Source of the DNA: Myxococcales bacterium
Lineage (GTDB): Bacteria > Myxococcota_A > Polyangia > Polyangiales > Polyangiaceae
DNA length: 35,065 nt
Direction: 5' to 3'
Assembly (NCBI GenBank): GCA_903642325.1
Contig: CAHJWM010000050.1
Location: forward strand, 1-35,065
Part shown: positions 47 to 24,545 of the stretch, one piece after another
How the letters are laid out: every line of letters starts with the position of its first letter
Position numbering within the stretch: the stretch's first letter is position 1
Notes under the pieces: generated by a model
The model's input: only the letters and a program-made list of their open reading frames with translations
What the model was told of the DNA's origin: nothing
The model's database searches: none
Translations under genes and position numbers: made by a program

Positions 47-1927
47 TCAGTCGAGCGGCTGATCGTCCAAGCTGTTGAGGAACGTGATCACGTCTGCCCG
101 CTCGGCCGCGTTGCCGACGAAAAACGGGTGCGGGGCGTCAGCGGCCCGCTGCTTTGGATCGAGCAGCGCGTCCAAGGAGGCGACCGAGTTGTCGTGCAAG
201 AAAACGGGCTTCCGCTTCAAATCCATCAGCATGGGAAGGGCATCGCCGCGCGGCAGGCCGAGGTTACTAGCTTCCACGATGATCAACTTGTCATCGAAGA
301 TGCCTACCGAATTTCGCACGGGCACGAGCGAAGTGATGGACGGAGCCACCGTGCTGGGCGTCAGCGGACGCTCAGCGAGCGCGTCACCACCATCATAACC
401 GGGCCACAACGTGGGGCGAGCTGGCGCTTTCGAAAACAAGTCGACCGTGCTGTTGAAAGGCACGATGTTCTGCGGGACGAACTTGCTCTGGTCCTCGTTG
501 TGACACGACGTACACTGTTGCCGGAACACGACGCGACCGCGGGCAATCGCATCCGGGTCCGTCTTGTCACCCGCGGGTGCGGGCAATGAGTCGAAGTAAG
601 AGCTCAGGTTCTTCAGCTTCGTCTCGTTGACGCGCATGCCGATGAAAGAGTCCTCATTCTTGGCGCCGGCATCCAGCCCGGTGGTCACCTCCGTGTTGCC
701 TGCGCGCCCCACGAACGGGTAACCGTTGGTCCCACCCTTCGGGACCGTCAGCTCGGCCAAAATCTTCTCGAAGTTGTCGGCGATCTCCACGCCCGCGGCG
801 CCGCCTCGGTCCATGAGGAACTTGCGACCGCCGGCGGTAGTGATGTCGGTTGGATCGAGCAGCGCCGTGTACACGAGATTATTGAAGCTCGGCAGCAGCT
901 TGATCGAACCATCGCTGCCTTCTGGTGCCTGCAAGTCAGCCCTGAACATGGGCGTGATGTGCATGGGAGCGCCGTTGCCGTCGATCGCGTCGTCGAACGA
1001 CCCCACCGGGTAAAGATCCGGATTGTTGAGATACGCGTCCACCTCCACTTCGGTCGCCGCCGCAGAAATGAGGTTCATGCTCACGCCCTTGCGCGAGACC
1101 GACTTGCCCATGTTGGCGACCAGATTCAAAGCCAGCGTGGGGTAGTACGCGCGAGATTGTGCGCCTAACGCAATCGAAGCACCGACGTTCAGGAAATGAT
1201 TGGTCGGGCCGTCCACGCGCTTGCCGATCGTGCCGCCGTTCGGCACGACCAAGACCGAGCCGTCCGTAATGCTGTGACAGAAAGCGCAGGTGATACCCAC
1301 GCTTTCTCCGGCGAAGACGTCGTCGTTATTGATGTCGATTTTGCCATTCAACGGCTTTTGAATATTGCGCGCCGAAATGCCCAAGACCGCGTTCATTTCG
1401 ATCAAAGCGATGGTCGTCGCTGGGTCGTTGAGCAAGGGCGCATTGGCCGGGCTCAGGTCGGTCTTGACCTCAGCCGCCAGCTTGGTCTTCACGTCACCGG
1501 CCGGGATCGCGTCGATGTCTACGCTGAGCCCAGCTTTGAGCGCCATGACGGGCGTGAGGTTCGCGGCCGCGATGCCCTGCGGCAATTGCAGCACCCGCGT
1601 CCAAAAGCCTTCATTGCCGAACGTCTCGAAGCGAAACACATCCTGGCCGGACTTGGCGGTGCCGCGCGGATGGTCGAACATGTTGGTGGTCGCAAACTTA
1701 TCCGTTGGCCCGGCCGAGCCGGGGAGCCCTCCGCCGGCTTCGCCGCCAGCACCCGCGGCCGTCTCGCCCGCGCTTCCGCCGACGTTCGAGCCCGCTGCAC
1801 CGGCCTCGCCGGCTTCGCCGCCTCCGGCCTTGCCGGTGTCCTCGTCCGAACAGGCCGCGGCGATGAGGCCGGTACATACTGCTATCCCCAATGCGATGAT
1901 GCTGCTGTGTCTCTTCGTGACGATCAT
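47..1927 (-). CDS. Di-haem c-type cytochrome lipoprotein, CCP/MauG-like (copy A)
   Basis: The 626-residue protein starts at an ATG with an AGGGA ribosome site five bases upstream. Its signal peptide ends in a lipobox (LIAAAC, Cys26), followed by a Gly/Ala-rich linker to about residue 75. Two CXXCH haem sites are visible, CAFCH at 214-218 and CTSCH at 472-476. Near the C-terminus, PVFLHDNSV followed by SLDALL resembles the substrate-side segment of bacterial di-haem cytochrome c peroxidases. The haems are about 258 residues apart, against roughly 145 in classical CCP, so this is an insertion-rich relative; a RoxA-type oxygenase or another MauG-like oxidase is possible. The protein is probably anchored in the outer membrane or periplasm. 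A paralogue, about 80 % identical over the last 165 residues by eye, lies at 12693-14648. Family call is fairly sure; substrate unknown. Confidence 0.85.
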   Translation of the reverse strand: MIVTKRHSSIIALGIAVCTGLIAAACSDEDTGKAGGGEAGEAGAAGSNVGGSAGETAAGAGGEAGGGLPGSAGPTDKFATTNMFDHPRGTAKSGQDVFRFETFGNEGFWTRVLQLPQGIAAANLTPVMALKAGLSVDIDAIPAGDVKTKLAAEVKTDLSPANAPLLNDPATTIALIEMNAVLGISARNIQKPLNGKIDINNDDVFAGESVGITCAFCHSITDGSVLVVPNGGTIGKRVDGPTNHFLNVGASIALGAQSRAYYPTLALNLVANMGKSVSRKGVSMNLISAAATEVEVDAYLNNPDLYPVGSFDDAIDGNGAPMHITPMFRADLQAPEGSDGSIKLLPSFNNLVYTALLDPTDITTAGGRKFLMDRGGAAGVEIADNFEKILAELTVPKGGTNGYPFVGRAGNTEVTTGLDAGAKNEDSFIGMRVNETKLKNLSSYFDSLPAPAGDKTDPDAIARGRVVFRQQCTSCHNEDQSKFVPQNIVPFNSTVDLFSKAPARPTLWPGYDGGDALAERPLTPSTVAPSITSLVPVRNSVGIFDDKLIIVEASNLGLPRGDALPMLMDLKRKPVFLHDNSVASLDALLDPKQRAADAPHPFFVGNAAERADVITFLNSLDDQPLD

Positions 1928-2771
1928 GTCGTTCCCTGTTGTAAAGCGGTCGGCAAATATAAGCGCTTTTGACGATCCGAGATTTTAGTAAGAGCGCGCG
2001 CTGGCGCCTGATGCACCTTCCGCGCCAATCGAGTGGCAAATTTCAGACCAAAATGCCGAGAACCGCGCGCCACTGCGCTTGGACCTAAGCCCGAGTGTCC
2101 GGGCATAAACAGCGCGATACTGTTCGGCTTTCGTAAAGTAGAGGCTCGCGGGCACGTAACGCTGCAGGCTGCCCCGCACCCCGCTGGAATGCCACGATGC
2201 GACCGATTGCCTCGCCCTAGAGGGCGATGCGTGCGGCTCGAGGGTCATAATTCGATGTTGAAAAATTTCGTGTTTCTTTGAAACCAAATTCTGCGCGGTG
2301 CATACAAGTTTGCCCACCGGGGCCGAGAGTCCTAATCAGCGCGCCTGAGCCACTGGCACCATGTCATTGAGAGTATGGGGAGCTCGCACGCCCATGCTAG
2401 GCCTGAACGGCGTCCGCCACGCGTAGCCCGGCGCCCTGCGCGCCGTGCGTCGCTCTCCGAACACGCTACATCGAGAGTTCAGCGAGCGCTCGCCCGCGCT
2501 CGCGTGCACACGTGCACGTGCTGTGCGAAAAGCCGTTGGCTACGACGGATGATAATGCCGCAATATGATCGCAGCCTGCGAAAAAAGCCAAGGTGCGGCT
2601 GATGACGGCGTATCGCATGCATTCGCCGAGGCGGGCCGCCCGCGAAAGCGCCCTGCCTGGTCAACGTCAAGCCGCCAACTCGGCCTTGAGACGCCCGGTC
2701 CCGATCCAGCGTGCGAGGAGACGCTTGGAGGGTCGCTCGAAATCCGCGTCTATGCAACACTCGTCCGCTCG
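1928..2771. other. Intergenic region, no convincing gene
   Basis: This 844-base gap separates the minus-strand di-haem gene from the plus-strand membrane protein gene, so it should hold two divergent promoters. Short open frames on both strands are Arg/Ala-rich and overlap each other, as expected from chance in GC-rich DNA. An AT-richer patch around 1950-1990 contains TATATT on the minus strand and may be the -10 region of the di-haem gene, but no good -35 is visible. Around 2480-2525 there is GCGAGCG/CGCTCGC inverted symmetry and alternating purine-pyrimidine GTGCAC sequence. No tRNA or riboswitch was recognised. Confidence 0.5.
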
Positions 2772-4283
2772 ATGAAGCCAGACAGAAAACGGCGCGTCAT
2801 GGCGCCGGGCGAAGCCTTGCCGGTGCTATGGGCGCTCGCTTTCGCGGCATTCTTGTTGGGCGCGTTTTTCGCAGTTCCCTACTTGCCGATGGTCGATATG
2901 CCGCAACATGCGGCGCAGATCAGTATTTGGCAACGCCTCGGCAACCTCGGTTTTCCGGAAACGCAACGGTTCGAGCTCAACCTTCGGACTCCCTATTTGG
3001 GCGCTTATGCGCTGGCTCGCGCGCTGTCCGGCCCGCTCGGCGTGATCGCTGGATTGAAGCTCACGGTCTGGCTCTCGATCATCGGGCATTGGGCGGCGTT
3101 CGATTGGTTGGTGCGCTGCACGAAGCACGAGCGTTGGCTCGGCCTGCTGGGTTTACCCATGGGCATGGGCTACGGCTTTTATTACGGCTTCATCAGCTTC
3201 ATCGGCGCGTTGCCGTTCGCGTTGGCGGCGGTGAGCCTGGCGCTCCGTCATCGTGAGGCGCCAACGCTGGCTTCGGGCTCATGGCTCGCGGCGGCGCTCT
3301 CGGCGACGCTTGCCACGCACGGCTTCGCGCTCGGGCTCAGTGTGCTTCTGGTGGCACCGCTCCTGCTGCGGGGGCAAGGCTCCCTGCTTGCGCGCGGAGC
3401 GCCGCTGCTCGCTCCTCTTGCGCTGATGGTGGTTTGGTTGATGCCCGGCTCCTCGGCGCGCGCCATCGGCAGCACGGTTTGGGATCCGCGATTCTGGGAG
3501 CTTGGCTCCGTGCCGTCGCTGCTTCTCGCCGCCTCCGCCGCCGACATTGCGGCGACCGTGCTTGGCCTCATTTTCCTAGGTTTCATCGGTCTATCGCTGG
3601 GCCGGCCGAGCCGGGAGCCCGAGCGCTACCTACCCATTGTCGGGTTGCTGCTCGGCTTTTGCTTGTTCCCGCTGAGCTTTGGCGGCTTCACCCCGTTGCA
3701 TCCGCGCTTTGCCGCGTTCCTGGTGCCCGCGCTGTTGCTCGTGTGCGAGCCGCGTTCCGAGCCGAGCTCGGCGCTCCTTCCGCATTGTCTGGTGGTGGCG
3801 ACCACGGCTTGGCTCGCGATGTTCTCATTTCGTCTGCATGCCTTTGCACGCGAAACGCGACCGCTCCGCGACTTCATTGCGCACGCGCCCGCCGGACTGC
3901 GCATACGGCCCATCGTGTTCGAGCGCAACAGCCTGGTGTTTCCCGGATTGCCGGCCCTGCTCCACCTATCGGCGTATTACGTACCCGAAAAGGCCGGCAC
4001 CCAGGGTTATTCATTCGCGATGTACCCGACGAGCGTCATTCGCTACATCCCGGCCGTGGTGCCGAGTATGGACAATGGTTCGGAATGGCGCCCCGATTGG
4101 TTTTCCGCTGAGGCCGAGCTAGCCGACTACGATTGCTTTTTGGTTCACAGCGTGAACGATCGATCGCTTGGGCTGTTCGGCGCGCACCTTGCTGAAGTCA
4201 GACTGGCGTTTCGAGAAGACGATTGGTGGGCCTATTTCACGAGCGCGGCCGACCGCCAGCCGCGCCTGAGCACCCGACGATGA
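2772..4283 (+). CDS. Polytopic inner-membrane protein, possibly GT-C-fold glycosyltransferase-like
   Basis: From the ATG at 2772 the protein has about 503 residues and around nine to eleven hydrophobic segments, the first right after a short basic start (KPDRKRR). The frame is open further upstream, but that part is Arg-rich and not protein-like, so the later start was chosen; a second ATG at 2799 is also possible. After the first membrane segment comes a loop reading VDMPQHAAQ. An acidic residue in the first periplasmic loop is typical of GT-C glycosyltransferases of the PMT/ArnT type, which suggests but does not prove that fold. A soluble tail of about 130 residues follows the last membrane segment. 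Two methyltransferase genes follow closely, so it may act with them on a lipid-linked or surface glycan. Function uncertain. Confidence 0.75.
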   Translation: MKPDRKRRVMAPGEALPVLWALAFAAFLLGAFFAVPYLPMVDMPQHAAQISIWQRLGNLGFPETQRFELNLRTPYLGAYALARALSGPLGVIAGLKLTVWLSIIGHWAAFDWLVRCTKHERWLGLLGLPMGMGYGFYYGFISFIGALPFALAAVSLALRHREAPTLASGSWLAAALSATLATHGFALGLSVLLVAPLLLRGQGSLLARGAPLLAPLALMVVWLMPGSSARAIGSTVWDPRFWELGSVPSLLLAASAADIAATVLGLIFLGFIGLSLGRPSREPERYLPIVGLLLGFCLFPLSFGGFTPLHPRFAAFLVPALLLVCEPRSEPSSALLPHCLVVATTAWLAMFSFRLHAFARETRPLRDFIAHAPAGLRIRPIVFERNSLVFPGLPALLHLSAYYVPEKAGTQGYSFAMYPTSVIRYIPAVVPSMDNGSEWRPDWFSAEAELADYDCFLVHSVNDRSLGLFGAHLAEVRLAFREDDWWAYFTSAADRQPRLSTRR

Positions 4284-4298
4284 GGCAGACGAGACCGC

Positions 4299-5192
4299 AT
4301 GAACAATCGATGGTCGTCAGTAGCTCCCCGTAGCGATTCGCCGGTGGCCGCCCCGATTTCCGCTGCGCGCCGCGCCAGCGCCTCGTCGGGCCCCGAAATC
4401 ACGCTCCAAGACTTCGAGCGTTATTTCCCGCATACACCGGCCGCGCTGTGCATCAAGGAATGTGCGCGCTTGTCCGTGATGCGTCGCCATCCGTGTCCTG
4501 GGCCGGTGTTGGACGTGGGCTGTGGCGACGGTCTATTCGCGCGCATGGCGTTCGACGACGTGGAAGTGTGGGGCATCGACATCGATGCGGCCGAGGGGCG
4601 CTGGGCGGCAGCGAGCCAAGCGTACGCGCAGGTCATCTTGGGCGATGTCACGCGTGCGGCGCTGCCGGCGGGCTTTTTCGCCACGTGCGTCGCCAATTGC
4701 TCCCTCGAGCACGTGCCGCGCATCGACGTAGCGTTGAAGAATATTTTGCACGCGCTGCGCCCTGGCGGTCTGGTCTACTTGTTCGTGCCGGCCGCCGGTT
4801 GGGCGAGCTACTTGAAGAGCGCGCGCGTGCTGCGTGATTTAGGCGCCGCGCGCCTCAGCACAGGCATCCAAAATGCGATCGATCATCGATTCCGGCACCA
4901 CCACCTGTATGACGCGCCGGGCTGGAGTCGCGTGGTCGAGCAGTCTGGGCTCGAGCTCCTGGCATGCGAACCGGTACTGTCCACGGCCACGACCGTCGCT
5001 TTCGAGGCCTTTTTATTGCCATCGTTAGCGGGCCTTCTGAACAAAAAACTGACCACGCGCTGGACCAATTTCCCGAACGCCCGGCGCCTCTTCGCGCGGC
5101 CCGTATTCGAAGCGGTGAAAGCCATCATGAGTCGCACGTCGGCCGCGCCCACGGCCGAGTTCTTGTTGATCGCGCGCAGACCGGAGGTGTAA
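4299..5192 (+). CDS. Class I SAM-dependent methyltransferase
   Basis: The 297-residue protein shows the methyltransferase motif I LDVGCGDG at 71-78, an acidic motif II (GIDID, near 93), a motif around LEHVPRID and the post-motif LRPGGLVYLFVPAAGW. This matches the Methyltransf_11/23 type of Rossmann-fold enzyme. About 40 N-terminal residues before the fold are Ser/Ala-rich and may be disordered. The C-terminal half has a hydrophobic stretch (FEAFLLPSLAGLL), so the enzyme may touch the membrane or a lipid substrate. It starts 15 bases after the membrane protein gene and ends directly against the next methyltransferase, which supports an operon of three. Substrate unknown; such pairs often modify lipids, quinones or polysaccharide sugars. 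Confidence 0.85.
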   Translation: MNNRWSSVAPRSDSPVAAPISAARRASASSGPEITLQDFERYFPHTPAALCIKECARLSVMRRHPCPGPVLDVGCGDGLFARMAFDDVEVWGIDIDAAEGRWAAASQAYAQVILGDVTRAALPAGFFATCVANCSLEHVPRIDVALKNILHALRPGGLVYLFVPAAGWASYLKSARVLRDLGAARLSTGIQNAIDHRFRHHHLYDAPGWSRVVEQSGLELLACEPVLSTATTVAFEAFLLPSLAGLLNKKLTTRWTNFPNARRLFARPVFEAVKAIMSRTSAAPTAEFLLIARRPEV

Positions 5193-5819
5193 GTGGCAGA
5201 ATCCGTCGACTATTTCACGAACCATCGCTTCAAGCTGCGCTTCCCGTGGAAGCTCTACCATCAGCCGATCGTGCGTGAGCTGAGCCTGGCGCTATCGGCA
5301 TCCAAGGGTGATGACGTGCTCAATCTGGGCTCGGGGCCGTTTTACGAATTGAACGCGCTGCCGCTGCTCGCTAAGCGTTTCACGCTGTGCGACATCGATC
5401 CGCGCGCGCTAGAGGCGGCGCGCAAGCTACACGGCGCAGCGTTAGCCGGCACGGATACGGTACAACCCGGCGCGCCCCTACCGTATCCGGATGCCCGTTT
5501 CGACGCCGTTGTTTCCATGGACGTGGTCGAGCACCTGGTCGACCCGTTGCCGTGGCTCGAGGAAGCGTTGCGGGTCTTGAAGCCGGGCGGCCTCCTGTTT
5601 TTGACGACGCCGAATTATGCGTCGCGGTCGTTGCGCGCGCTCGAAAACACCGTGCTCGAAGCGATCGCCCGGGCGCAAGGCTTCAGTCGCAAAGACCTGC
5701 ACCCAAGCAAGCTGGACGCGCCCGCGCTGCGCTCGCTTCTTCGCCGCGCTGGCGCCCGAAACGCGGTGACTCAGCCCATTTCCTTTGGCTGGGTGCTCGC
5801 GGCCTATGCGTGGCGCTGA
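5193..5819 (+). CDS. Class I SAM-dependent methyltransferase, type 11
   Basis: The gene uses a GTG start immediately after the TAA of the previous gene, with a strong GGAGG ribosome site at 5183-5187 inside that gene's end. The 208-residue protein has motif I as VLNLGSGPF near residue 43, motif II CDIDP, the motif MDVVEHLVDPLPWLEE and the following LKPGGLLFLTTPNY. It lacks any membrane segment and should be cytosolic. The first glycine-rich loop reads NLGSG rather than the more common DVGCG, still compatible with SAM binding. It is different from its upstream neighbour rather than a tandem copy. Substrate unknown. Confidence 0.85.
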   Translation: MAESVDYFTNHRFKLRFPWKLYHQPIVRELSLALSASKGDDVLNLGSGPFYELNALPLLAKRFTLCDIDPRALEAARKLHGAALAGTDTVQPGAPLPYPDARFDAVVSMDVVEHLVDPLPWLEEALRVLKPGGLLFLTTPNYASRSLRALENTVLEAIARAQGFSRKDLHPSKLDAPALRSLLRRAGARNAVTQPISFGWVLAAYAWR

Positions 5820-6134
5820 CCTCGCGGCGCTATCGAGCTCAGCTGCTAAAAAAATTCCCGGATTTCTGATAGATTTGGGCGAGAATCAACAGAGCCTCAT
5901 GAAGACGCGGCGTTGGCGGGAACGACTCCATATCTTCTTCGTTCCAGGTGTCGATGGTCACTCGGCATCCCTCATTGCGTCCCAGCCTTCGGCGCCGCGG
6001 CCGCGCCTGGGCTTTTCTCGATCAAGATTGCCGATCGTGGGAGCTCCATTTACGGGGCGCCCACGTTGTCGGATCGTGCGATGGTGACCGAACCGCCGCG
6101 CCGATCCTCTCTCCGCTCTCCGCCGTACTCGGTC
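5820..6134 (+). other. Intergenic leader upstream of the TPR gene
   Basis: This 315-base stretch lies between the second methyltransferase and the TPR protein. A run of seven A at 5847-5853 precedes a modest AT-rich patch. Frames open here (from ATGs at 5899, 5913 and 6081) code for sequence without recognisable folds. The frame from 5913 runs into the TPR protein but reads like noncoding sequence until a hydrophobic signal begins near 6165. No hairpin with a T-run was found, so the methyltransferase operon may be read through. Confidence 0.4.
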
Positions 6135-7340
6135 ATGCATTTCAAATGGGGCGGGCGTCGTACCTGGTTACTCGTCGCGCCGCTGTTGCTGTTGGGGGTT
6201 GCGGCGGCGGTCACGCTGCTTCGGCCGGCCCCGGCGAACGCTGACGTGTATGTGCCCAAAACCGATGCGGAGGTGCTCGAGACGTTGCCTGGCCCCGTGG
6301 CGAACACTTGGCTGCAAACCGCCGCCCAGGCATCGTCCTCGGCACCCCTCGACGCAGACGCGGCCGTGCTGCGCGCTCGTGCCGAGCTGACGCTTTACCA
6401 GGAGAGCGCCGATCCGCGTTACTTGGGACGCGCGGAAGCGGCCTTGGGCAATTTTTGGGACGAGGCTTCACCGCCTGAGCCCATCCTGGTGCTCCGCGCT
6501 CGCATTCGCCAAAGCAATCACGATTTCCTGGTGGCGCTGGCCGACCTCGACCAGGCGCTGACGCTCAGTCCGAACGACGCTCAGGCCTTGCTGGATCGAG
6601 CCAGCATTCAAACGGTACTGGGGCGCTACGATGCGGCGCGGCGCGATTGCCAGACCCTCGAAACGTTGACCGCGCCGCTTTACGTGGTGGTCTGCCGGGC
6701 GGCGATCGCGGGTGTGACCGGGTCGGCGGCAGCGGCCGCCGCCGAGCTCTCGCAAGTGCTCTCTGCCCCGCGTGTCGAAGTGGAGGACCGCTGCTGGGCC
6801 GAATCACTCCAGGGCGAGCTGGCGACGCGCCTGGGCCAGAGCGCCCAGGCCGAAGCGCATTTTCGTGGCGTACTGGCGGCCTGCCCAAATGATAGCTACG
6901 CGCGCGGCGCACTGGCCGATCTGCTCCTGGACTTGCAGCGGTATCCCGAGCTGATCTCGTTATTGGCCGATTCCACTCGACAGGATGCTTTGCTGCTTCG
7001 CCTGACGATCGCAGAGCGCCAGCTGCGCTCCCCAAACTTCGATTCTCATCTGAAAGATTTGGAGCAGCGTTTCGAGGAAGCGCGCCTGCGCGGAAACCAA
7101 GTTCATCGGCGCGAGGAAGCGCGCTTCGAGCTTTCGTTGAAAGATGCGCCGGCTCGCGCGTTAGCGCTTGCGACCGCCAATTTTCGAGTGCAACGCGAGC
7201 CAGCCGACGTGCGCATTGCCTTGGAGTCGGCGCTCGCCGCTGGCCATCCGGAGAGCGCGCGAGACGTGATTGCCTTCGTGTCGGCTTCCAAGCTGGAAGA
7301 TCCCCACGTGGCCGCGCTCTTGGGGAGGCTTCGGCCGTGA
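6135..7340 (+). CDS. TPR-repeat protein, membrane-anchored or secreted, coupled to HupE
   Basis: From the ATG at 6135 the protein has 401 residues. It starts with a basic segment and a long hydrophobic stretch (LLVAPLLLLGVAAAV), a signal peptide or anchor. The rest is helical, with tetratricopeptide-like units; the clearest are around LVALADLDQALTLSPNDAQAL and a downstream unit around AEAHFRGVLAACPNDSYA. An in-frame ATG at 6081 would add 18 residues. The stop overlaps the start of the next gene as GTGA, so the two are translationally coupled. TPR domains hold protein partners, so this may be a periplasmic scaffold for the HupE-type permease or for the DUF4331 protein encoded nearby. That role is inference. 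Confidence 0.8.
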   Translation: MHFKWGGRRTWLLVAPLLLLGVAAAVTLLRPAPANADVYVPKTDAEVLETLPGPVANTWLQTAAQASSSAPLDADAAVLRARAELTLYQESADPRYLGRAEAALGNFWDEASPPEPILVLRARIRQSNHDFLVALADLDQALTLSPNDAQALLDRASIQTVLGRYDAARRDCQTLETLTAPLYVVVCRAAIAGVTGSAAAAAAELSQVLSAPRVEVEDRCWAESLQGELATRLGQSAQAEAHFRGVLAACPNDSYARGALADLLLDLQRYPELISLLADSTRQDALLLRLTIAERQLRSPNFDSHLKDLEQRFEEARLRGNQVHRREEARFELSLKDAPARALALATANFRVQREPADVRIALESALAAGHPESARDVIAFVSASKLEDPHVAALLGRLRP

Positions 7341-8452
7341 AGCAGGGCGTCGCGGCCCTGGTCTTCGCCTGGGCTTTGTTGTCGAGCTCGCTCGCCAGCG
7401 CTCATAAGCCAAGCGACAGCTACCTGATGCTGCAGAGATCCGCGCGCGGTGCGCACGGTCGTTGGGACATCGCGCTTCGCGATCTGGAAGCCGCCGTGGG
7501 CCTGGATCGAGATCACGACGGCGCGGTCAACTGGGGCGAGCTCAGGGCCCGCTTGCCGGTCGTCACGGCATATGCAGCCGGCCGCTTGAGCGCGCGAACC
7601 TCAGCGGGCCGCTGCGTACTGTCCCTCAGCCCGCAGGGCGTCGTTGCGCACTCGGATGGCAAGTACGTGGCGATGGGGCTCGAGCTCTCCTGTCCGGGCG
7701 ATGCCTCCGCCATCCTAGTGCGCTACGATCTCTTGTTCGACATCGACGCGCAGCATCGCGGTGTGCTGCGCTATTCGGATGGCGACAACATGCAGCCCCT
7801 GGTGTTCAGCAAGGCGCGCCGGGAGCTCGCGCTGTCGCATGTGGCCCCTAGGTTTTTTGCCATCGTTCGCTTGGGAATCGAGCACATTCTCAGCGGTTAC
7901 GATCACTTGTTGTTTTTGACGGCGCTGCTCTTGCCGTCCGTTCTCCGTCGCCGCGATGGCAAGTGGATCCCCGCCGCCGACTTCCGGAGTGTGCTGATGG
8001 ACGTGCTGCGTACGGTCACCGCCTTCACGCTCGCGCACTCGCTGACGCTCGCCCTGTCTGCGGCGCACTGGGTCGTCCTGCCGTCGCGCTTCGTGGAATC
8101 CGCGATCGCGGTTTCCATCATCTTGGCCGCGCTCAATAATCTTTTCCCAGTGCTGGACGCGGACCGCTCGCTTGCGTTTGGCCTTGGCTTGCTTCACGGC
8201 TTTGGCTTCGCGGCCGTGCTGTCCGACGTGGGGCTGTCGGGGCAAAGTTTCGTGCGCACTCTGTTCGGCTTCAACCTGGGCGTCGAGATCGGACAGCTGG
8301 CCGTCGTAGCGTCCATGCTGCCGGTGCTGCACCTGCTCCGGCGTAGCCGCTTTTATCCCACATGGGGCATGCCCACCGCCTCGATCGCAGTGATGCTCGT
8401 GGCTTGCATTTGGTTCGTGGAACGCGCCTTCAATATGAAGATCATCTCTTAA
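7337..8452 (+). CDS. HupE/UreJ-type metal permease with periplasmic EF-hand loop
   Basis: The 371-residue protein starts at a GTG overlapping the upstream TGA. It has a signal peptide (ending near SAHKPSDSYL), an N-terminal extracytoplasmic domain of about 150 residues, and then six or so membrane helices. The membrane part carries the family signatures GIEHILSGYDHLLFL, AHSLTLALS and LHGFGFA, whose His/Asp residues are thought to bind nickel or cobalt in HupE/UreJ proteins. In the N-terminal domain a perfect EF-hand loop occurs at residues 57-68 (D-x-D-x-D-G, hydrophobic at position 8, E at 12), so calcium or another divalent ion may bind there. Together with the coupled TPR gene it forms a two-gene unit upstream of DUF4331. 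Transported metal not proven. Confidence 0.88.
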   Translation: MKQGVAALVFAWALLSSSLASAHKPSDSYLMLQRSARGAHGRWDIALRDLEAAVGLDRDHDGAVNWGELRARLPVVTAYAAGRLSARTSAGRCVLSLSPQGVVAHSDGKYVAMGLELSCPGDASAILVRYDLLFDIDAQHRGVLRYSDGDNMQPLVFSKARRELALSHVAPRFFAIVRLGIEHILSGYDHLLFLTALLLPSVLRRRDGKWIPAADFRSVLMDVLRTVTAFTLAHSLTLALSAAHWVVLPSRFVESAIAVSIILAALNNLFPVLDADRSLAFGLGLLHGFGFAAVLSDVGLSGQSFVRTLFGFNLGVEIGQLAVVASMLPVLHLLRRSRFYPTWGMPTASIAVMLVACIWFVERAFNMKIIS

Positions 8453-8568
8453 GGCCGCGACATGCCAAGTTGCGCGACTCGAGGCGGCCCGGTTAGAACG
8501 TGGATCGTCCGCGACACCGCACCGCGCACTTTGAAGAAGCCGTCGCCCGATGTCGGAGCGCGGGGGGC

Positions 8569-9162
8569 TTATTTCAATTTCGCGAAGCTTTCGAACAGAC
8601 GCGCTTCCGTGGCGTCGGACGCCGGTGTCTTCTGTATCTCGCGCACCGTCAAAGACGTGGCTTGGTTGATTCGGATTTCGCGGTTGGCGAGCACGATCTT
8701 GCGGGACCTCTCCGCGCCGGCCTTGGCCGCGGCTGGATCGATGTACTCGCACAAGCTGATCGCGATGTCGGTTCCCGACATGCCGCCCACGCAGTAACGT
8801 GCGCCGTAGGGCCGCCCCAAGTGCTGACGCACGTCCCCGAGCTCGATACCGTCTTTCTTGAAGGCGGCCAGCGCATCCTCCACCTTGATCGTGCCCGTCG
8901 GGCGCGCGGCTAGCTCGTTCTGGAACATTTCTCCGAAATCCCGGGGATTTCTCGGCAATGCAGCCGTCGGGCTTCGGGCCGAATCGCTCGCGCTCGCCGA
9001 TGCGCTCGGGCCGAGAGCGGCGCTCGCGCTCGTTGCAAGTTTGTTGTTGTCTAAGGTGGAATTCTGCGCTCTGCCGCATGCGGGCAATACGCCACACACC
9101 GCGCCGGCCCCCAAAATCCCGATAAAATGCGCGAATAACTGGCGAGATTTATTATTAAGCAT
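8569..9162 (-). CDS. Small hypothetical lipoprotein
   Basis: The 197-residue protein has a signal peptide and lipobox GVLPAC (Cys29), then an Ala/Ser-rich low-complexity linker to about residue 70. The C-terminal domain of about 125 residues holds a region around DVRQHLGRPYGARYC and a second cysteine in ISLCEYIDP, possibly a disulphide pair. No known domain was recognised. It is transcribed divergently from the DUF4331 gene across a 138-base spacer, which suggests shared regulation. No clear ribosome site precedes the ATG. Its 3' end faces the HupE gene. Confidence 0.7.
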   Translation of the reverse strand: MLNNKSRQLFAHFIGILGAGAVCGVLPACGRAQNSTLDNNKLATSASAALGPSASASASDSARSPTAALPRNPRDFGEMFQNELAARPTGTIKVEDALAAFKKDGIELGDVRQHLGRPYGARYCVGGMSGTDIAISLCEYIDPAAAKAGAERSRKIVLANREIRINQATSLTVREIQKTPASDATEARLFESFAKLK

Positions 9163-9177
9163 AATCGAGTTTTACTT

Positions 9178-9223
9178 TTGACGGCTGGGTTCGGATCGAG
9201 CAATGATTAGAGTACGGTGCTCT
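9178..9223 (+). promoter_or_regulatory. Putative promoter and pseudo-palindromic operator of the DUF4331 gene
   Basis: TTGACG at 9178-9183 resembles a -35 box and AATGAT at 9202-9207 lies 18 bases on as a weak -10. Directly downstream, AGAGTACGGTGCTCT (9209-9223) is a pseudo-palindrome with seven-base arms and one mismatch, a fitting place for a repressor. The spacer serves two divergent genes. Assignment is by eye only. Confidence 0.35.
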
Positions 9224-9300
9224 TAGCGCAAACCGTAAATCTGATCTAGCGCTGCGGTCGTAGTCCATCGACCGCTCTTATCTGCGGACAGGGAGTTAGT

Positions 9301-10986
9301 ATGAGAAATCGAGCTCTAATCAAATCGGGTCTAATCGCCGCGGCGCTATCGGCGCTGGGCATTTCGCTGCTCTCGCACCACGCCGGTGCGTCAAGCCATC
9401 GCGAAGCACCCTTCATTACCAAGAACCCTAAAGTCGACAGCACCGACTTGTATCTGTTCAAGAGCTACGAGGCCGGCAGGGCGGCGTACGTGACGCTGAT
9501 TGCGAACTACATGCCGCTGCAGAATCAGAACGGCGGTCCCAACTTCTTCACCTTCGATCCGGAAGCTCTGTACGAGATCCATATCGACAACACCGGCGAT
9601 GCCAAGCAGGACATCACGTTCCAGTTTCGCTTCCAGAGTAACCTCGTCGGCACTGCACTTCCGGTTCCGCCGCCCGTCGGCGGCGTCCCCGCTGCCAACA
9701 CCAAGAACGTCGCCATTCCGCTCATCAACTCGGGCGCGGTCTCCGGTGACGGCGCATCGGCGCCCGTCAACGCCAATGTTTTCGAGACGTACACCGTTCA
9801 AGTGCTCAAGGGCGATGCGGCCACCGGCACCACGACGGACGTGACCCTAAACTCGAATCCAGCGATCAAGACGTTCCAGAAGCCGCTCGATTACATCGGC
9901 CAGAAGTCGTTCGGCAGCCCTGCGGCATACGAGCTGTATGCGCGCAAACACATCTTCGATGTCAAGCTCGACGGCTGCGCAACACCCGCGCGCGTCTTCG
10001 TCGGTCAGCGCAAAGAGACGTTCGCCGTCAACCTGGGCGTGATCTTCGATCTCGTCAATGTCGACGGCCTGGGCTTAGCCGCGGTGAATCAGCCGCTCGG
10101 CGACGCGCTCTCTTCCAAGAGCCATCGCGCCGACTTCGGCAACCCCATCGGTAACACCAACATCACCAGCATCGCGCTGGAGGTGCCGATCACGTGCCTC
10201 ACTGGCACGGCCAGCGCGGCAACCGGTGCCGCCGCCGATGCCAACAAGGTCATCGGCGCTTGGCAGACGGCCAGCGTTCGTCAGGCCCGCGTCATCAACC
10301 CCGGGCCGACGTTCGCCAAGCCCACGGTCGAAGGCGGCGCTTGGGCGCAGGTCTCGCGGCTCGGCTTTCCGTTGGTCAACGAGGCGGTGATTGGCCTGAA
10401 AGACAAGGACAAGTTCAACTCCAGCATTCCGAGCAACGACCTCGCGAGCTTCGCCGACTACGTGACGAACCCCACGCTGCCCGCGCTGCTGCAAATCTTG
10501 TTCGGTGCCGCCGGCTACGCGGCTCCGCCAGTTCCGCGTGATGACATCGTGGCCGCAGCCATCACCGGCGTCTCAGGCGTCAATCTCGTTGTCGGCGGTG
10601 CCGCCGGCGAGATGCAGCGCTTGAACGTCAACCCCGCTTTCGTGCCACGGCCGATCGCGACCCAGTTCCCATTGGGCGCCGCCGGTTGTTTCTTAGGCGC
10701 GAACGTCGCGGCCCCGACGTACGGCTTCCTTGCCACCGACCCGAACTGCGACCCCAATGGCTTCCCGAACGGCCGCCGTCCGCTGGACGACGTCACCGAC
10801 GTGATTCTGTCGGTCGTAGGCGCCAACTTTCTGCGTACGCCACTGGCCGACAAGACCGTGCTTCACGACGGCGTTGCTGAGGAAGCGGGCTTCCGCGCCA
10901 TTGTCGCGCCTGCGACCACGCCCACCGCGAGCTCGCCCGCCGTGGAGATGTTCCCGTACTTGCCCACGCCCAATGGCGGAACGTGA
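9301..10986 (+). CDS. DUF4331 family secreted protein
   Basis: The 561-residue protein starts at an ATG with AGGGAG five bases upstream. A signal peptide precedes SSHREAPFITKNPKVDSTD, the N-terminal hallmark of DUF4331 proteins, and the following LYLF and later LYEIHIDNTGDAKQDITFQF also fit. The mature protein is predicted to be mostly beta and to sit in the periplasm or outside the cell. No catalytic motif is known to me for this family. The acidic and His residues of the HREAP region (HREAP then D-x-T-D) could bind a metal. It overlaps or nearly abuts the small lipoprotein gene behind it and shares a region with TPR, HupE and di-haem genes. Family call is confident; function unknown. Confidence 0.9.
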   Translation: MRNRALIKSGLIAAALSALGISLLSHHAGASSHREAPFITKNPKVDSTDLYLFKSYEAGRAAYVTLIANYMPLQNQNGGPNFFTFDPEALYEIHIDNTGDAKQDITFQFRFQSNLVGTALPVPPPVGGVPAANTKNVAIPLINSGAVSGDGASAPVNANVFETYTVQVLKGDAATGTTTDVTLNSNPAIKTFQKPLDYIGQKSFGSPAAYELYARKHIFDVKLDGCATPARVFVGQRKETFAVNLGVIFDLVNVDGLGLAAVNQPLGDALSSKSHRADFGNPIGNTNITSIALEVPITCLTGTASAATGAAADANKVIGAWQTASVRQARVINPGPTFAKPTVEGGAWAQVSRLGFPLVNEAVIGLKDKDKFNSSIPSNDLASFADYVTNPTLPALLQILFGAAGYAAPPVPRDDIVAAAITGVSGVNLVVGGAAGEMQRLNVNPAFVPRPIATQFPLGAAGCFLGANVAAPTYGFLATDPNCDPNGFPNGRRPLDDVTDVILSVVGANFLRTPLADKTVLHDGVAEEAGFRAIVAPATTPTASSPAVEMFPYLPTPNGGT

Positions 10987-11000
10987 GAAAGGCCTTAGTC

Positions 11001-11378
11001 ATGCGCTCACGTACTCTCCTTGGTGCGTTGTGCTTGCTCGGCGCGTTGACCGCGGCCGCGTGCAGCGACGACGACGCTTTGACTGGCGGGACCGGCACTT
11101 CAGCCGGTAGCGGCGGTAAAGGCGGCGGTGGTAACAGCACCGGCGGTAATGCCGGCAAAGGCGGCGGCAGCCACGCGGGTTCTCCGGGCGGCGGGTCGCC
11201 CGGCGAAAGCGGCGCGGGTGGCGAGGCCGGAACAGGTGGTGGTTGCGTCCACTTCGCTGATTTCGTGCACGATGTCATCGCAAAGGACACGAATAGCAAG
11301 AGCGCGCCTCGGCCCGTGAATGATATCGTGTTTTGCGTCGAGCCCGCCGACCCCGGCGCATTCAACGACCTGTTCTGA
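11001..11378 (+). CDS. Short lipoprotein with Gly-rich linker and small C-terminal domain
   Basis: The ATG at 11001 is preceded by GAGAAAGG, giving 125 residues; an in-frame GTG at 10983 overlapping the DUF4331 stop (GTGA) would add six. The signal peptide ends in LTAAAC (Cys21). About 50 residues of Gly/Ser repeats follow, and then only some 45 residues of normal composition, CVHFADFVHDVIAKDTNSK to the end, with two cysteines that could pair. Its position suggests a surface partner or anchor for the DUF4331 protein. No family was recognised. A terminator follows at once, marking the end of this operon. Confidence 0.75.
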   Translation: MRSRTLLGALCLLGALTAAACSDDDALTGGTGTSAGSGGKGGGGNSTGGNAGKGGGSHAGSPGGGSPGESGAGGEAGTGGGCVHFADFVHDVIAKDTNSKSAPRPVNDIVFCVEPADPGAFNDLF

Positions 11379-11400
11379 TCGAAGCGTACTGGTCACTTAG

Positions 11401-11444
11401 CGAGCCGGTCGGCGTCCTCCGCGTCGACCGGCTCGAGTTTTTTT
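11401..11444 (+). terminator. Intrinsic terminator after the DUF4331-lipoprotein pair
   Basis: A perfect 11-bp stem, CGAGCCGGTCG (11401-11411) with CGACCGGCTCG (11425-11435), closes a 13-base loop and is followed by seven T at 11438-11444. It lies 23 bases after the lipoprotein stop and in front of the converging NiCoT-like gene. Confidence 0.9.
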
Positions 11445-11517
11445 GTGCGTCTGGGGCGGTGCCCGTGGCCCGCTAATCGGGGGCATGACGTGCGATCTTA
11501 CGGGATTGAAGCAAGCG

Positions 11518-12210
11518 TCATTGCGGCAACCAGTGAGGGTGGCTGCTGAATAACCCCTGCACGAATCCAATGTCATAGATCAGCAGGGCACCGAAAGAGA
11601 CGCTGAGGAGACCGGTGACGACCCCGAGGACCCGGTGCAGGCGTGCAAAACGCTGGGCGGCGGCTGCGATCGGGACGGCCATCGCCGTGGTGATTAGCAG
11701 CATTCCCGCGATTGTACCGACGCCAAAGACGACGAGATAACATGCGGCCCACAACGCGTTCGGGATAGTGCCTAAGACCAAGAGGGCGACCGCGGCAGAC
11801 CCGGCAAGCCCGTGCATGATGCCGACGAAGAGCGGCCGCATCGATCGCGGTCGATTCAGAGCTCGGGCGCTGGGGTGCTCTGGGTACGGCTCCTCACCCC
11901 CAGACTCGGCCGCTTCGCGAAACCCCGCGCGCACGTTGAGCCCGCCCAGAAATACAAGCATCAGCGCGACGCACAGTTCCATGCTCAGCCCGACATAGGG
12001 TGGGATCACGATGCTAAAAAAGATGATCGCGCCGCCAACGATCAAGATCGCGATCGAGTGCCCGGCTCCCCAAATGACCCCAATGGGTGCGGCAGCCCAC
12101 AAGGTTCGCTCACGACTAACAATTGCCGACACCGCGACCACGTGATCGGCATCAGTGGCGTGTCGAATTCCAAGGAAAAAGCCGAACCCTAAAGTCACCG
12201 TAATGCCCAT
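11518..12210 (-). CDS. NiCoT-like (HoxN/HupN/NixA-type) permease, short form 1
   Basis: The 230-residue protein has about six membrane helices. Its first helix holds RHATDADHV, the HX4DH nickel/cobalt signature of NiCoT permeases, and a GAGH motif and HGLAGS follow in later helices. An AAGGA ribosome site lies about eight bases before the ATG. Classical NiCoT proteins are about 330 residues with eight helices, so this is a reduced form; the central loop is short and acidic. A paralogue lies at 21962-22702, and both end in the same HxHWxPQ pattern. Metal import is likely, but export or another substrate cannot be excluded. Confidence 0.85.
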   Translation of the reverse strand: MGITVTLGFGFFLGIRHATDADHVVAVSAIVSRERTLWAAAPIGVIWGAGHSIAILIVGGAIIFFSIVIPPYVGLSMELCVALMLVFLGGLNVRAGFREAAESGGEEPYPEHPSARALNRPRSMRPLFVGIMHGLAGSAAVALLVLGTIPNALWAACYLVVFGVGTIAGMLLITTAMAVPIAAAAQRFARLHRVLGVVTGLLSVSFGALLIYDIGFVQGLFSSHPHWLPQ

Positions 12211-12246
12211 GGCGCTGTCCTTGCTGAAAACTCAACCGAACGTGCC

Positions 12247-12273
12247 ATGATTATTTATCATTGTGTTACACAA
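12247..12273 (-). promoter_or_regulatory. Overlapping palindromes upstream of the NiCoT-like gene
   Basis: ATGATTATTTATCAT (12247-12261) has five-base arms and TTGTGTTACACAA (12261-12273) is another palindrome with five-base arms. They lie 37-63 bases upstream of the NiCoT-like start, in the expected promoter zone. The AT-rich core could be bound by a Fur-, Zur- or NikR-like regulator, but neither matches a consensus exactly. Confidence 0.4.
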
Positions 12274-12356
12274 GCGCACTTCGCGCCGACTTCGCGAGGA
12301 TGTGTGCAGGGGCGTGACTTTTTAGATCGTAGCCGAGGGCGCGGCCTTTTTCGTGG

Positions 12357-12380
12357 CATCTTAATTAAGATTCGTGCTAC
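12357..12380. promoter_or_regulatory. Palindrome plus TTCGTGCTACA motif shared with the receptor promoter
   Basis: A 14-bp perfect palindrome, ATCTTAATTAAGAT, leads straight into TTCGTGCTACA. The same CTTAATT and TTCGTGCTACA words, four bases closer together, occur just upstream of the TonB-dependent receptor gene near 14972-14989. Two copies in one neighbourhood suggest a shared regulator. Confidence 0.4.
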
Positions 12381-12388
12381 ATAATTTT

Positions 12389-12435
12389 CGCCCGACCTAC
12401 GCGTTCTCTCCCCTGTCGGGCGCGTAGGTCGGGCG
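12389..12435. repeat. Perfect 15-bp inverted repeat
   Basis: CGCCCGACCTACGCG (12389-12403) and its exact reverse complement (12421-12435) flank 17 bases. No T-run follows on either strand, so it is not a standard terminator. The last loop bases repeat part of the right arm (GTCGGGCG twice), allowing an alternative register. It could be a cruciform, a protein site or a remnant repeat element. Confidence 0.6.
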
Positions 12436-12626
12436 CCGAAATACCGAGCCATCCTCGAGCGCTGCTCCGCGACGGAGGTCAGCGCGGCCACGGCGCTGAG
12501 AACGCCCTAAGGGCTGGCGGCGACGCTTAACAAGCACAAGGCGCCGAAGCCGCTCAAGAGGGGAGGCAAGAGCGCGACAGCTCCGCGCGGTGGCCTCGAC
12601 GCCCACTTCTTAGTTCGGTGGGAACA

Positions 12627-12669
12627 CAAAACGAGCCAGGCGGCGCATCGAGTGACGCGCCGCCTGGCT
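12627..12669 (-). terminator. Terminator of di-haem copy B
   Basis: AGCCAGGCGGCGC (12634-12646) pairs perfectly with GCGCCGCCTGGCT (12657-12669) around a ten-base loop. Read on the minus strand, a short CGTTTT tail follows. It begins 24 bases beyond the copy B stop. The T-run is short but the stem is strong. Confidence 0.75.
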
Positions 12670-12692
12670 TGATTCGTATCGACGGCCGGCGT

Positions 12693-14648
12693 TCAGTCGA
12701 GGGGCTTGTCGTCCAAGCTGTCCAAGAACTTGATCGTGTCTGCACGTTGGCCCGCGTCCGAGATGTAAAACGGATGAGGCGCATCCGCGGTTCGGAGGGT
12801 GGGGTTGAGCAGAGCGTCGAGGTTGGGTACCGAATTATCGTGCAAGAAGACGGGCTTGCGCTTCAAATCCATGAGCAACGGCAACGCATCACCACGCGGC
12901 AACCCGAGGTTGCTGGCCTCGACGATGATGAGCTTGTCGTCGAAGATCCCGGGTGAGTTCCTCACTGGTACCAGGCTCGTGATGGCCGGCATCATGGTGC
13001 TGGGCGTGAGTGGACGCTCGCCGAGCGACGGCCCGCCGTTATACGCCGGCCACAGCGTGGGACGTGCCGGGGCGGCTGAGAACAAGTCGACGGTGCTATT
13101 GAACGGCACGATATTTTGGGGCACGAATTTACTCTGATCGTCATTATGGCAAGACGTGCATTGCTGGCGGAAGACGATGCGTCCGCGGGCGATTGCGGCC
13201 GCGTCCGTCTTGTCGCCTGTCGGCGCGGGTAGGGAATCGAAGTAGGAGCTGAGATTCTTCAGCTTGGTCTCGTTCACGCGCATACCGATTGGCGAATCCT
13301 CGTTCTTGGCGCCCGCGTCGAGGCCGGTAGTCACGTCGGCGTTGCCCGCACGACCGACGAATGGATAGCCGTTCGTCCCGCCCTTGGTGATGCCTAGTGA
13401 GGCCAGAATCTTCTCATAGTTGTCAGCGATCTCGATGCCGGCCGCGCCGCCGCGATCTTGCAAGAACTTCCGGCCATTCAGCGTAGTGATGTCGGTGGGA
13501 TCGAGCAGCGCGGTGTAGACCAGGTTGTTGAAGCTAGGCAGCAACTTGATATCGCCGTCACTTCCTTCGGGCGCCGCCAAGTCGGTGCGGAACATCGGCA
13601 TGATATGCATGGGCGCGCCGTTTCCATCGATGGCGTCGTCGAACATTCCCACCGGGTATAAAACTGGGTCGTTCAGGTAGGCATCGACCTCGGTCTCGGT
13701 TGCAGCGGCAGAAATCAGGTTTGCTCCGACCCCTTTACGAGACACCGAGCCATGCTTGTTCGCGATCAAGTCCAGAGCCAAGCTCGGGTAGAACGCGCGC
13801 GAATTTGCGCCCAGCGCCACGGCCGCGCCTACGTTCAAGAAATGGTTGGTCGGGCCGTCGACACGGTGACCGATGGACCCGCCGTTCGGCAACGAGAAGA
13901 CGCTGCCGTCGGTGATGCTATGACAGAACGCGCAGCTGATGCCGACGCTCTCGCCTGCGAACACGTCGCTCGTGTTGACGGTGATCTTGCCGTCCGGCGG
14001 TTGGGTGATATTGCGCGCGGAAACGCCGATCACCGCGTTCAGCTCGATGAGCGCGATCGTGGTGGCTGGATCATTGAGGGTCGGAGCGTTCGCGGGGCTC
14101 AAATCGGTCTTGAGCTCGGCGGCAACCTTGTCCTTGGTTGCGCCCGCGGGGATCGCGTCGATGTCGACGCACAAACCCGCTTTCAGCGCTTGAACCGGCG
14201 TGAGACCAGCGGTGATGATGCCTTGCGGTAGCTGCAAGGCGCGCGTCCAGAAGCCCTCATTTCCGAAGGTCTCGAAACGGAAGACGTCTCTGCCCATCGC
14301 GGCAATGCCGGCCGGATGCTTGAACATGTCCGTAGTGGCGAAAGCATCCGTGGGCCCGGACACTCCCCGCAGGCCCGGGACGCCTGGGACCCCCGCCTCG
14401 CCGCCCGCGCCCGCTTCGTCCGCGCCGCCCGGTTCTTCACCGGCGCCGCCGCCCTTGGAGGTCTCGCCGCCGCGGCCCAATGACCCGGCATGCCCCGACG
14501 ATCCGCCGTGGCCCGACAGCCCCCCTTGGCTCGAAGAGCCGGAGGCACCGGCCGTGCCTTGCGCATCGTCGTCGGAACAAGCGGCTAAGGCGCAGCCCGC
14601 AAGCACCGATAGAGTTAGGGCAACACAAGAGCTCTGTCTTTTATTCAC
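12693..14648 (-). CDS. Di-haem c-type cytochrome lipoprotein, CCP/MauG-like (copy B)
   Basis: The 651-residue protein starts at a GTG and has a signal peptide ending in LAAC (Cys24), followed by a Gly/Ser/His-containing linker of about 75 residues that differs from that of copy A. Haem sites are CAFCH at 239-243 and CTSCH near 497-501. The region between them, the FRFETFGNEGFWTR block and the C-terminal PVFLHDNSV block are almost the same as in copy A, and nucleotide changes fall mostly at third positions, so both copies look functional. Copy B has an extra Cys near 160. Its promoter region carries 17-bp tandem repeats. It ends at a strong hairpin. Likely an envelope redox enzyme or electron carrier; substrate unknown. 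Confidence 0.85.
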   Translation of the reverse strand: MNKRQSSCVALTLSVLAGCALAACSDDDAQGTAGASGSSSQGGLSGHGGSSGHAGSLGRGGETSKGGGAGEEPGGADEAGAGGEAGVPGVPGLRGVSGPTDAFATTDMFKHPAGIAAMGRDVFRFETFGNEGFWTRALQLPQGIITAGLTPVQALKAGLCVDIDAIPAGATKDKVAAELKTDLSPANAPTLNDPATTIALIELNAVIGVSARNITQPPDGKITVNTSDVFAGESVGISCAFCHSITDGSVFSLPNGGSIGHRVDGPTNHFLNVGAAVALGANSRAFYPSLALDLIANKHGSVSRKGVGANLISAAATETEVDAYLNDPVLYPVGMFDDAIDGNGAPMHIMPMFRTDLAAPEGSDGDIKLLPSFNNLVYTALLDPTDITTLNGRKFLQDRGGAAGIEIADNYEKILASLGITKGGTNGYPFVGRAGNADVTTGLDAGAKNEDSPIGMRVNETKLKNLSSYFDSLPAPTGDKTDAAAIARGRIVFRQQCTSCHNDDQSKFVPQNIVPFNSTVDLFSAAPARPTLWPAYNGGPSLGERPLTPSTMMPAITSLVPVRNSPGIFDDKLIIVEASNLGLPRGDALPLLMDLKRKPVFLHDNSVPNLDALLNPTLRTADAPHPFYISDAGQRADTIKFLDSLDDKPLD

Positions 14649-17445: not shown

Positions 17446-17453
17446 GGTTCTTC

Positions 17454-21009: not shown

Positions 21010-21059
21010 GGCTAATTCCTTCGAGTTACGGTGAGGCTCTAGCGCTGTGTGCTTCGGGC

Positions 21060-21773: not shown

Positions 21774-21943
21774 ATTCAATTCTCCTCTTGATGAAGTGAG
21801 CGGTGGCGGCATGCCGCACTTTGCAGGTGGATCGCCGCCCAGAGCCGTGCTCTCCGGCAAATGCTCTCGGCGAACACCTGGTACGACCAGGGCGGTGCCT
21901 CGGATCGTCCGAGAGCGTTTTAGATTCGCCTTCCCGGCGCCCC

Positions 21944-21960
21944 TGTGCGACCGTAGCACA
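21944..21960. promoter_or_regulatory. Inverted repeat before the second NiCoT-like gene
   Basis: TGTGC (21944-21948) and GCACA (21956-21960) flank seven bases and end two bases before the ATG at 21962. The 188-base spacer is shared with the divergent ferritin-like operon. An operator overlapping the start is possible, but short repeats of this kind can also occur by chance. Confidence 0.3.
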
Positions 21961-24500: not shown

Positions 24501-24524
24501 AGCGTTACACTTCGCAGTAACGCT
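24501..24524 (+). promoter_or_regulatory. Hairpin or operator in front of the surface-protein gene
   Basis: AGCGTTAC (24501-24508) and its exact reverse complement GTAACGCT (24517-24524) flank eight bases, and TTTT follows. It ends 21 bases before the ATG at 24546. It could be an attenuator-like hairpin in the leader or the binding site of a dimeric regulator. Confidence 0.5.
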
Positions 24525-24545
24525 TTTCCGCCGACTTTCCGGCTG

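Follow-up and report, generated by a model that had tools for sequence, protein, structure and literature searches.

Two long-diverged di-haem lipoproteins of a Polyangiaceae bacterium, a possible RoxA/FadCcp-like subfamily with optional linkage to DUF4331 genes

The window analysed here, 35,065 nucleotides from a soil Myxococcales bacterium of the family Polyangiaceae (assembly GCA_903642325.1), is one whole contig (CAHJWM010000050.1, hereafter C50) of a 5.83-Mb genome in 140 contigs, and it carries two genes for large di-haem c-type cytochromes, A and B, which bracket a block of genes that includes those for a DUF4331 protein and a HupE-type permease. We favour the explanation, to which we give a probability of roughly 0.48, that A and B both encode a lipid-anchored di-haem enzyme, as functional copies that diverged long ago, that they belong to a subfamily of their own near RoxA and FadCcp, and that they do not act in a fixed pathway with the DUF4331 and HupE proteins. 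The evidence comes from the divergence of the two copies, from the conservation and predicted fold of the wider family, and from the company that its genes keep in other genomes.

Two diverged copies under purifying selection

The product of gene A (47..1927, minus strand; 626 residues) combines an IAAAC lipobox-like motif and a following Gly-rich linker with the haem-binding motifs CAFCH and CTSCH, while that of gene B (12693..14648, minus strand; 651 residues) has a lipobox-like LAAC, a Gly-rich linker, CAFCH at residues 239-243, CTSCH at 497-501 and the MauG-type motif FLHDNSVP; both lipoboxes were read by eye. A sequence-only reading of this DNA had described the pair as lying on the same strand 12.7 kb apart and as about 80% identical over the last 165 residues, with differing Gly-rich linkers, a conserved catalytic part and mostly silent nucleotide changes, and the alignments bear this description out. 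The starts of the two genes are ~12.7 kb apart, with an intergenic gap of ~10.8 kb; their products are 74% identical over 651 columns including gaps (BLASTP) and, by aligned codon pairs, 79.0% identical over all 624 pairs, rising to 81.7% in the last 545 and to 82.4% in the last 165. As identity is high over the last 545 residues too, the similarity is not limited to the C-terminus. The linkers differ in the BLASTP alignment, also in length; other proteins of the window carry the same linker type, so that the linker alone is no special feature.

Differences between A and B at codon positions 1, 2 and 3 number 131, 74 and 330, and Nei-Gojobori (NG86) estimates of non-synonymous (dN) and synonymous (dS) divergence are 0.168 and 1.98 over all pairs, and 0.144 and 1.95 over the last 545. 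The resulting dN/dS of ~0.07 is only rough, because dS is saturated, and a ratio near 1 for one copy, which the earlier reading had named as evidence against selection on both, was not seen. Both A and B are kept under purifying selection. A third copy, C, 60% identical, lies on another contig (C12) of the same genome, with dN 0.31 and dS 1.4 to A, and dN 0.33 and dS 1.9 to B; these pairwise means give no sign of a relaxed copy. A tree of 61 rows joins A and B as sisters (support 100/99) and places C as the sister (100/99) of a protein (L007) from a genome of the same genus (the same match as G244). A recent tandem duplication was considered for A and B and rejected, since dS is saturated even though the two are sisters in the tree.

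Distribution, conserved residues and predicted fold of the family

A single contig scan with B as the query recovered 67 loci from nine phyla (phyla as named in the records), and phyla are mixed on many branches of the tree. Nearer to the window the gene is patchy, occurring in 1 of 188 genomes of the phylum and 3 of 108 genomes of the family, with weak partial matches to the B query in four other genomes among the 188. The family alignment used below comprises 52 of the 58 usable relatives together with A and B, hence 54 rows (L035, L044, L045, L046, L047 and L056 were omitted). The Pfam model CCP_MauG (PF03150) matches neither A nor B at E 0.01, and at the same threshold it matches a single one of the 54 rows (E 0.0019), Pfam otherwise giving a weak cytochrome c match. 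The best named match is NCBIfam NF040606 (di-heme-cytochrome C peroxidase), with E 3e-7 and 8e-7, which covers ~50 residues of A and B and, with 30 and 29 bits, stays far below its cut-off of 150. The family is a remote member of the cytochrome c peroxidase (CCP)/MauG superfamily, and forms a new and widespread branch of what is an ordinary superfamily.

Both CxxCH motifs are invariant in all 54 rows, as are four histidines, His152, His410, His512 and His534 (model numbering). The last of these, His625 in B, stands 22 residues after the PVFLHDNSVP motif, and three residues beyond it is Tyr537, found in 50 of the 54 rows. Both A and B have 258 residues from one CxxCH to the other; this is larger than in classical enzymes, much as the sequence-only reading had said with regard to classical CCP (199 in RoxA and 245 and 235 in PA2077 and PA2078, in the published passages cited below), and it is ordinary within this family, whose members span 238-284. 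Few of the differences between A and B fall on family-conserved sites. At residue 361 of B (model 270) and its equivalent in A stands a Glu, whereas the residue is Trp in copy C and aromatic (Phe, Trp or Tyr) in every one of the 52 other rows; this Glu arose before the A/B duplication.

An AlphaFold model built on the family alignment (pLDDT 87.8, pTM 0.91) was compared with solved structures, a check that the earlier reading had proposed, and returned the CCP/MauG fold with RoxA, an MbnH-like protein and MauG among its remote matches. In VIA-align, RoxA (4b2n) gives the longest alignment of the 50 rows listed, 330 residues at Z 10.8 and a root-mean-square deviation (rmsd) of 3.7; the MbnH-like 6e1c reaches Z 10.7, MauG ~10 and the peroxidases (CCPs) at most 11.6, many chains of CCPs and MauG falling between Z 9 and 12 with an rmsd of ~4. 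Three PDB matches pass E <0.001 in Foldseek, namely YhjA, a Nitrosomonas peroxidase and chain C of hydrazine synthase 5c2v. Within the genome itself, MauG-like proteins can be aligned with the C-terminal domain by hhalign (126 columns at a probability of 87%). Classical CCP, MauG and MbnH share with the family the core fold, two c-type haems and an alignable C-terminal domain, whereas they are half to two thirds of its size, have a shorter haem spacing and are recognised by CCP_MauG.

Closer parallels are offered by the rubber oxygenases RoxA, RoxB and LatA, which are likewise large di-haem c-type proteins of the CCP superfamily; a motif of the MauG type and, probably, a bis-His C-terminal haem would be further common features. 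The published passages drawn on here (among PMC4496055, PMC6311187 and PMC6797691) give RoxA an N-terminal haem ligand H195 with bound O2, a bis-His C-terminal haem (H394/H641), the MauG motif PYFHNGSVP (P[YF][FLM]HN[GS]SVP as a RoxA/RoxB pattern), a haem spacing of 199 and no peroxidase activity, and they give spacings of 245 and 235 for the FadCcp proteins PA2077 and PA2078. The pair H394/H641 is resembled in the present family by H410/H534 (model), and the ends of the RoxA alignment (model 554 with RoxA 662) would put His534 next to H641, a placement read from those ends. The motif is similar and not identical, with HNGS or HNSS in RoxA/RoxB against HDNS here (PVFLHDNSVP in B, PVFLHDNSVA in A); the haem motifs CAFCH/CTSCH stand against CSACH or CSGCH or CHACH/CASCH in the same passages on RoxA/RoxB/LatA, and the spacing is 258 (238-284 in relatives) against 199. 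PA2077 (10S-DOX) and PA2078 (7,10-diol synthase) resemble A and B as two related large di-haem proteins of one genome, with spacings close to the 238-284 found here, a likeness drawn from the published values.

Behind the FLHD motif the family alignment has no conserved Met; the sole column with at least 10 Met is 547, in the last helix, with Met in 18 of the 54 rows and Thr in B. Bacterial CCPs carry a distal Gln/Pro/Glu set at the N-terminal haem and a Met ligand of the C-terminal haem behind an HDG-type motif, and MauG and MbnH have a Tyr ligand of the C-terminal haem. The column facing the catalytic Glu of CCP and the other Glu/Gln/Pro peroxidase positions are variable here, by a global hhalign alignment that is weak in that region. 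The RoxA-like motif, the His beside H641 and the variability of the peroxidase acid-base columns together lead us to prefer an oxygenase or oxidase of the RoxA/FadCcp type to a plain peroxidase. In such an enzyme, the catalytic domain would be kept at the envelope by the lipid anchor and Gly-rich tether; O2 or a peroxide would bind at the N-terminal haem (B His243), as the open and reactive one of the two, and the C-terminal haem (B His501, with His625 as the probable second ligand) would pass or store electrons. The substrate, instead of H2O2 alone, would probably be an organic molecule that is small or lipophilic.

Several observations weigh against this explanation. The top VIA-align match is 5c2v chain C (Z 13.8) and not RoxA, which appears only in the VIA-align rows and is not among Foldseek's 50 listed matches; with Z 10 to 14 and an rmsd of ~4, the structural likeness of the model is remote altogether, and B alone as the query finds no sequence match among solved structures up to E 0.1. 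The alignment of the distal pocket is weak, and RoxA F317 and W302 could not be placed. Given their Glu at B residue 361, A and B may work differently from the rest of the family. Finally, neighbouring genes of a stress type fit a stress peroxidase as well.

Linkage to DUF4331 and rival explanations

The sequence-only reading had taken the bracketing of the DUF4331 block by A and B as a sign of an envelope redox pathway. The pair with these neighbours does not recur, which the earlier reading had itself named as an outcome against its proposal: the pair is found in none of 7 other genomes of the genus, one of which has a single relative, and in none of 107 other genomes of the family, two of which have one di-haem gene each, in a search that scored first-look candidates only (at most 11 per genome in the family), so that weak relatives could be missed. 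One conserved operon of the pair and the block was accordingly rejected, the pair being confined to this genome among 8 in the genus and 108 in the family. Neither DUF4331 nor HupE genes adjoin copy C, L006 or L007, the last two being the closest relatives, and open reading frames (ORFs) of at least 150 residues with two CxxCH motifs are absent from 20 DUF4331 regions (up to 20 kb) of other myxobacterial genomes.

The association with DUF4331 nevertheless extends to other phyla. We took 50 of the 67 loci, including all five already known to hold DUF4331; the surrounding stretches of the other 17 hold none. A DUF4331 match is present in 28 of the 50 genomes and absent at E 0.001 from 22, and in seven the two genes share a contig at distances of 0.2 to 10.8 kb (G235/L062, G217/L094, G192/L010, G194/L012, G234/L060, G203/L021 and G218/L095), their records naming Acidobacteria or Blastocatellia (four), Gammaproteobacteria, Phenylobacterium and Myxococcales. 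Seven genomes linked within 11 kb, a limit chosen after the distances were seen, compare with 0.28 expected (P ~7e-9) under a simple model in which the genes are placed evenly, genome sizes are rounded and copy numbers were read off by hand; within 5 kb there are four against 0.15 expected. As many contigs are short, the observed linkage is a lower bound. In one of these loci (L095, 17393-19901) two DUF4331 genes stand in tandem behind an extracytoplasmic function (ECF) sigma factor, 10.5 kb from the di-haem gene. The link between the di-haem and DUF4331 genes is real but optional; of the pathway first proposed, the recurrence in other phyla stands, whereas one obligate pathway is unlikely and a loose functional link is possible. 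The DUF4331/HupE module would work without the di-haem enzyme in most genomes, and their neighbourhood may reflect a shared condition or optional cooperation.

Linkage above chance need not imply cooperation, for both genes could be passengers of the same accessory regions, such as shared mobile or stress islands. The patchy distribution of the di-haem gene, the mixed-phylum branches of its tree, the variety of its neighbours and the solitary copy C all suit this idea, which is compatible with any reading of the enzyme; distances down to 0.2 kb among seven linked genomes, spread across Acidobacteria/Blastocatellia, Proteobacteria and Myxococcales, speak against it, and we regard it as plausible at somewhat below even odds.

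As to the enzyme itself, a stress peroxidase of the envelope would draw electrons from small cytochromes, or from a cupredoxin lipoprotein encoded nearby (19429-20049), to reduce H2O2 or organic peroxides. Many peroxidases are among the fold matches, and the main evidence is a set of neighbours that point to oxidative or envelope stress: near the di-haem relatives are ECF sigma factors in 12 loci (closer than 4 kb in 8), Crp-type regulators in 8 (two being the same place), DUF417 in 4 (again two in the same place) and Ferritin_2 in L019, L020, L036 and L042, while a ChrR-type cupin lies beside L096 and L097. Response-regulator-like proteins also occur; one or two members each of the ECF, Crp, DUF417 and Ferritin_2 groups were checked with Pfam. 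Against a peroxidase stand the Glu/Gln/Pro positions, which that weak alignment shows as not conserved, the missing Met behind FLHD and the single row recognised by CCP_MauG, and we deem it rather unlikely. A MauG- or MbnH-like oxidase that modifies a residue of an envelope protein, with DUF4331 or a small lipoprotein as the candidate, so as to make a metal site, has in its favour the MbnH-like 6e1c and MauG among the fold matches, the linkage to DUF4331 and the tie of the small lipoprotein to one DUF4331 group, yet it is improbable, as all 20 myxobacterial DUF4331 regions lack a di-haem gene, 22 of the 50 di-haem genomes lack a DUF4331 match and the small lipoprotein of the window has neither Trp nor Tyr.

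The DUF4331/HupE module and its neighbourhood

Apart from the di-haem enzyme, for which we prefer the RoxA/FadCcp-like explanation, the block between the copies is a separate module worth testing in its own right. It begins with a gene for a TPR protein (5913..7340, plus strand; TPR_19 E 2e-6), whose true start may be further in, overlapped by 4 bases by that for a HupE/UreJ_2 permease (7337..8452, plus strand), the N-terminal part of which has a stretch, DRDHDGAVNWGEL, that we take to be EF-hand-like. Between this and the DUF4331 gene is a lipoprotein of 197 residues (8569..9162, minus strand) without a family match and with relatives in 6 other module-bearing genomes. The DUF4331 protein (9301..10986, plus strand) scores 400 bits against a gathering score of 27 over model positions 1-421, and its stop is overlapped by the start of a small lipoprotein gene (10983..11378, plus strand; 131 residues) encoding a Gly-rich linker and a short conserved tail. 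After these five genes of the module, the block also holds a NicO/DsbD_2-like membrane protein (11518..12210, minus strand; DsbD_2 E 4e-5) with the motif HATDADH and 31-37% identity (tblastn) to stretches in L010, L104, L110 and L111. The sequence-only reading had called this a DUF4331/HupE/NiCoT block, of which DUF4331 (PF14224, E 2e-119) and HupE (PF13795, HupE_UreJ_2, E 8e-45) are secure, while the NiCoT label is weaker, NicO (E 7.5e-4) being below the cut-off.

Among 43 DUF4331 loci, in which L097 and L112 represent the same gene, 26 have a TPR protein from a single cluster near DUF4331 and 23 have a permease, which is HupE2 in 18 and NicO-type in 5, the two permease clusters never sharing a locus. 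The NicO-type protein, with the motif HATE[VI]DH, replaces HupE2 beside DUF4331 and TPR genes in L010, L104, L105, L107 and L111, the motif being absent from the part read of L105 and L107. Wherever PKV or PKT follows SSHREAP in DUF4331, a small lipoprotein gene lies directly downstream (12 of 12 loci: the window, L074, L076, L096-L102, L121 and L123, a group chosen after the sequences were seen; the L096 gene was read across unread bases in another frame and the L098 copy was found by eye). In a profile jackknife the tails of these lipoproteins ranked 1 of 2999 in 10 of the 12 and second in L097, and that of L102 was not found. The rule for a lipoprotein behind DUF4331 also fired outside this group in four ORFs, of which, by eye, L088 and L132 look like non-genes and L079 and L093 are other, longer proteins.

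The most novel lead is the N-terminus of DUF4331. In 48 of 55 ORFs, an Ala or Gly after a hydrophobic stretch is followed by X-X-His and Pro; five of the seven misses show X-X-His further in, giving 53 of 55, and the remaining two are gene pieces. The 55, drawn from the better matches with weaker and broken ones left out, include three places counted twice (L077/L125, L082/L128 and L083/L130), the pair L076/L123, which is nearly identical, and two ORFs from each of L093 and L095. An X-X-His N-terminus is the arrangement of the amino-terminal Cu(II)- and Ni(II)-binding (ATCUN) motif. In the window protein, the Pfam domain starts at residue 31, right at the X-X-His residue, and the predicted mature N-terminus is SSHREAP after HHAGA; if the signal peptide is cut there, mature DUF4331 would have an ATCUN-like Cu/Ni-binding end, while in AASHREAP proteins the cut could fall one residue later and place the His at position 2. 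With the neighbouring permeases, this predicted end suggests a metal function for the module. That DUF4331 proteins would be secreted Cu(II)/Ni(II) carriers working with the TPR protein, with a permease from either of two unrelated families (NicO or HupE2) and, in a single group, with a small lipoprotein on a tether, and with the di-haem lipoproteins as optional oxidoreductases that adjoin in several phyla, is a picture to which we lend little credence as a whole.

DUF4331 has no solved relative at E 1 and no viral relatives to deepen its alignment; a structure model from five rows reached pLDDT 38 and was not used, and a viral fold library gave no match. No paper in the open-access library searched names DUF4331 or PF14224, whereas the control DUF2236 was found in 12 papers.

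Beyond B, the window encodes a TonB-dependent receptor (14998..17445, plus strand) with a fused N-terminal TonB_C-like domain and relatives near DUF4331 in L096 and L097, followed by two lipoproteins without a family match (17316-18272 and 18296-19225). The cupredoxin lipoprotein (minus strand; PF00127 E 7e-7) and two Ferritin_2 proteins (20074-21959, minus strand) lie 5 to 7 kb from B, and further on is a 1434-residue protein (24366-28670, plus strand) that combines a PA14 domain with 12 DUF4215 stretches.

Among the reactions of the superfamily's enzymes are the cleavage of rubber, the oxygenation of fatty acids and the making of protein cofactors, so that a di-haem subfamily spread over many soil phyla and invisible to the CCP_MauG model may hold new chemistry. 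The DUF4331 module, for its part, offers a testable idea for a large uncharacterised family, namely a predicted N-terminal Cu/Ni-binding end beside metal permeases.

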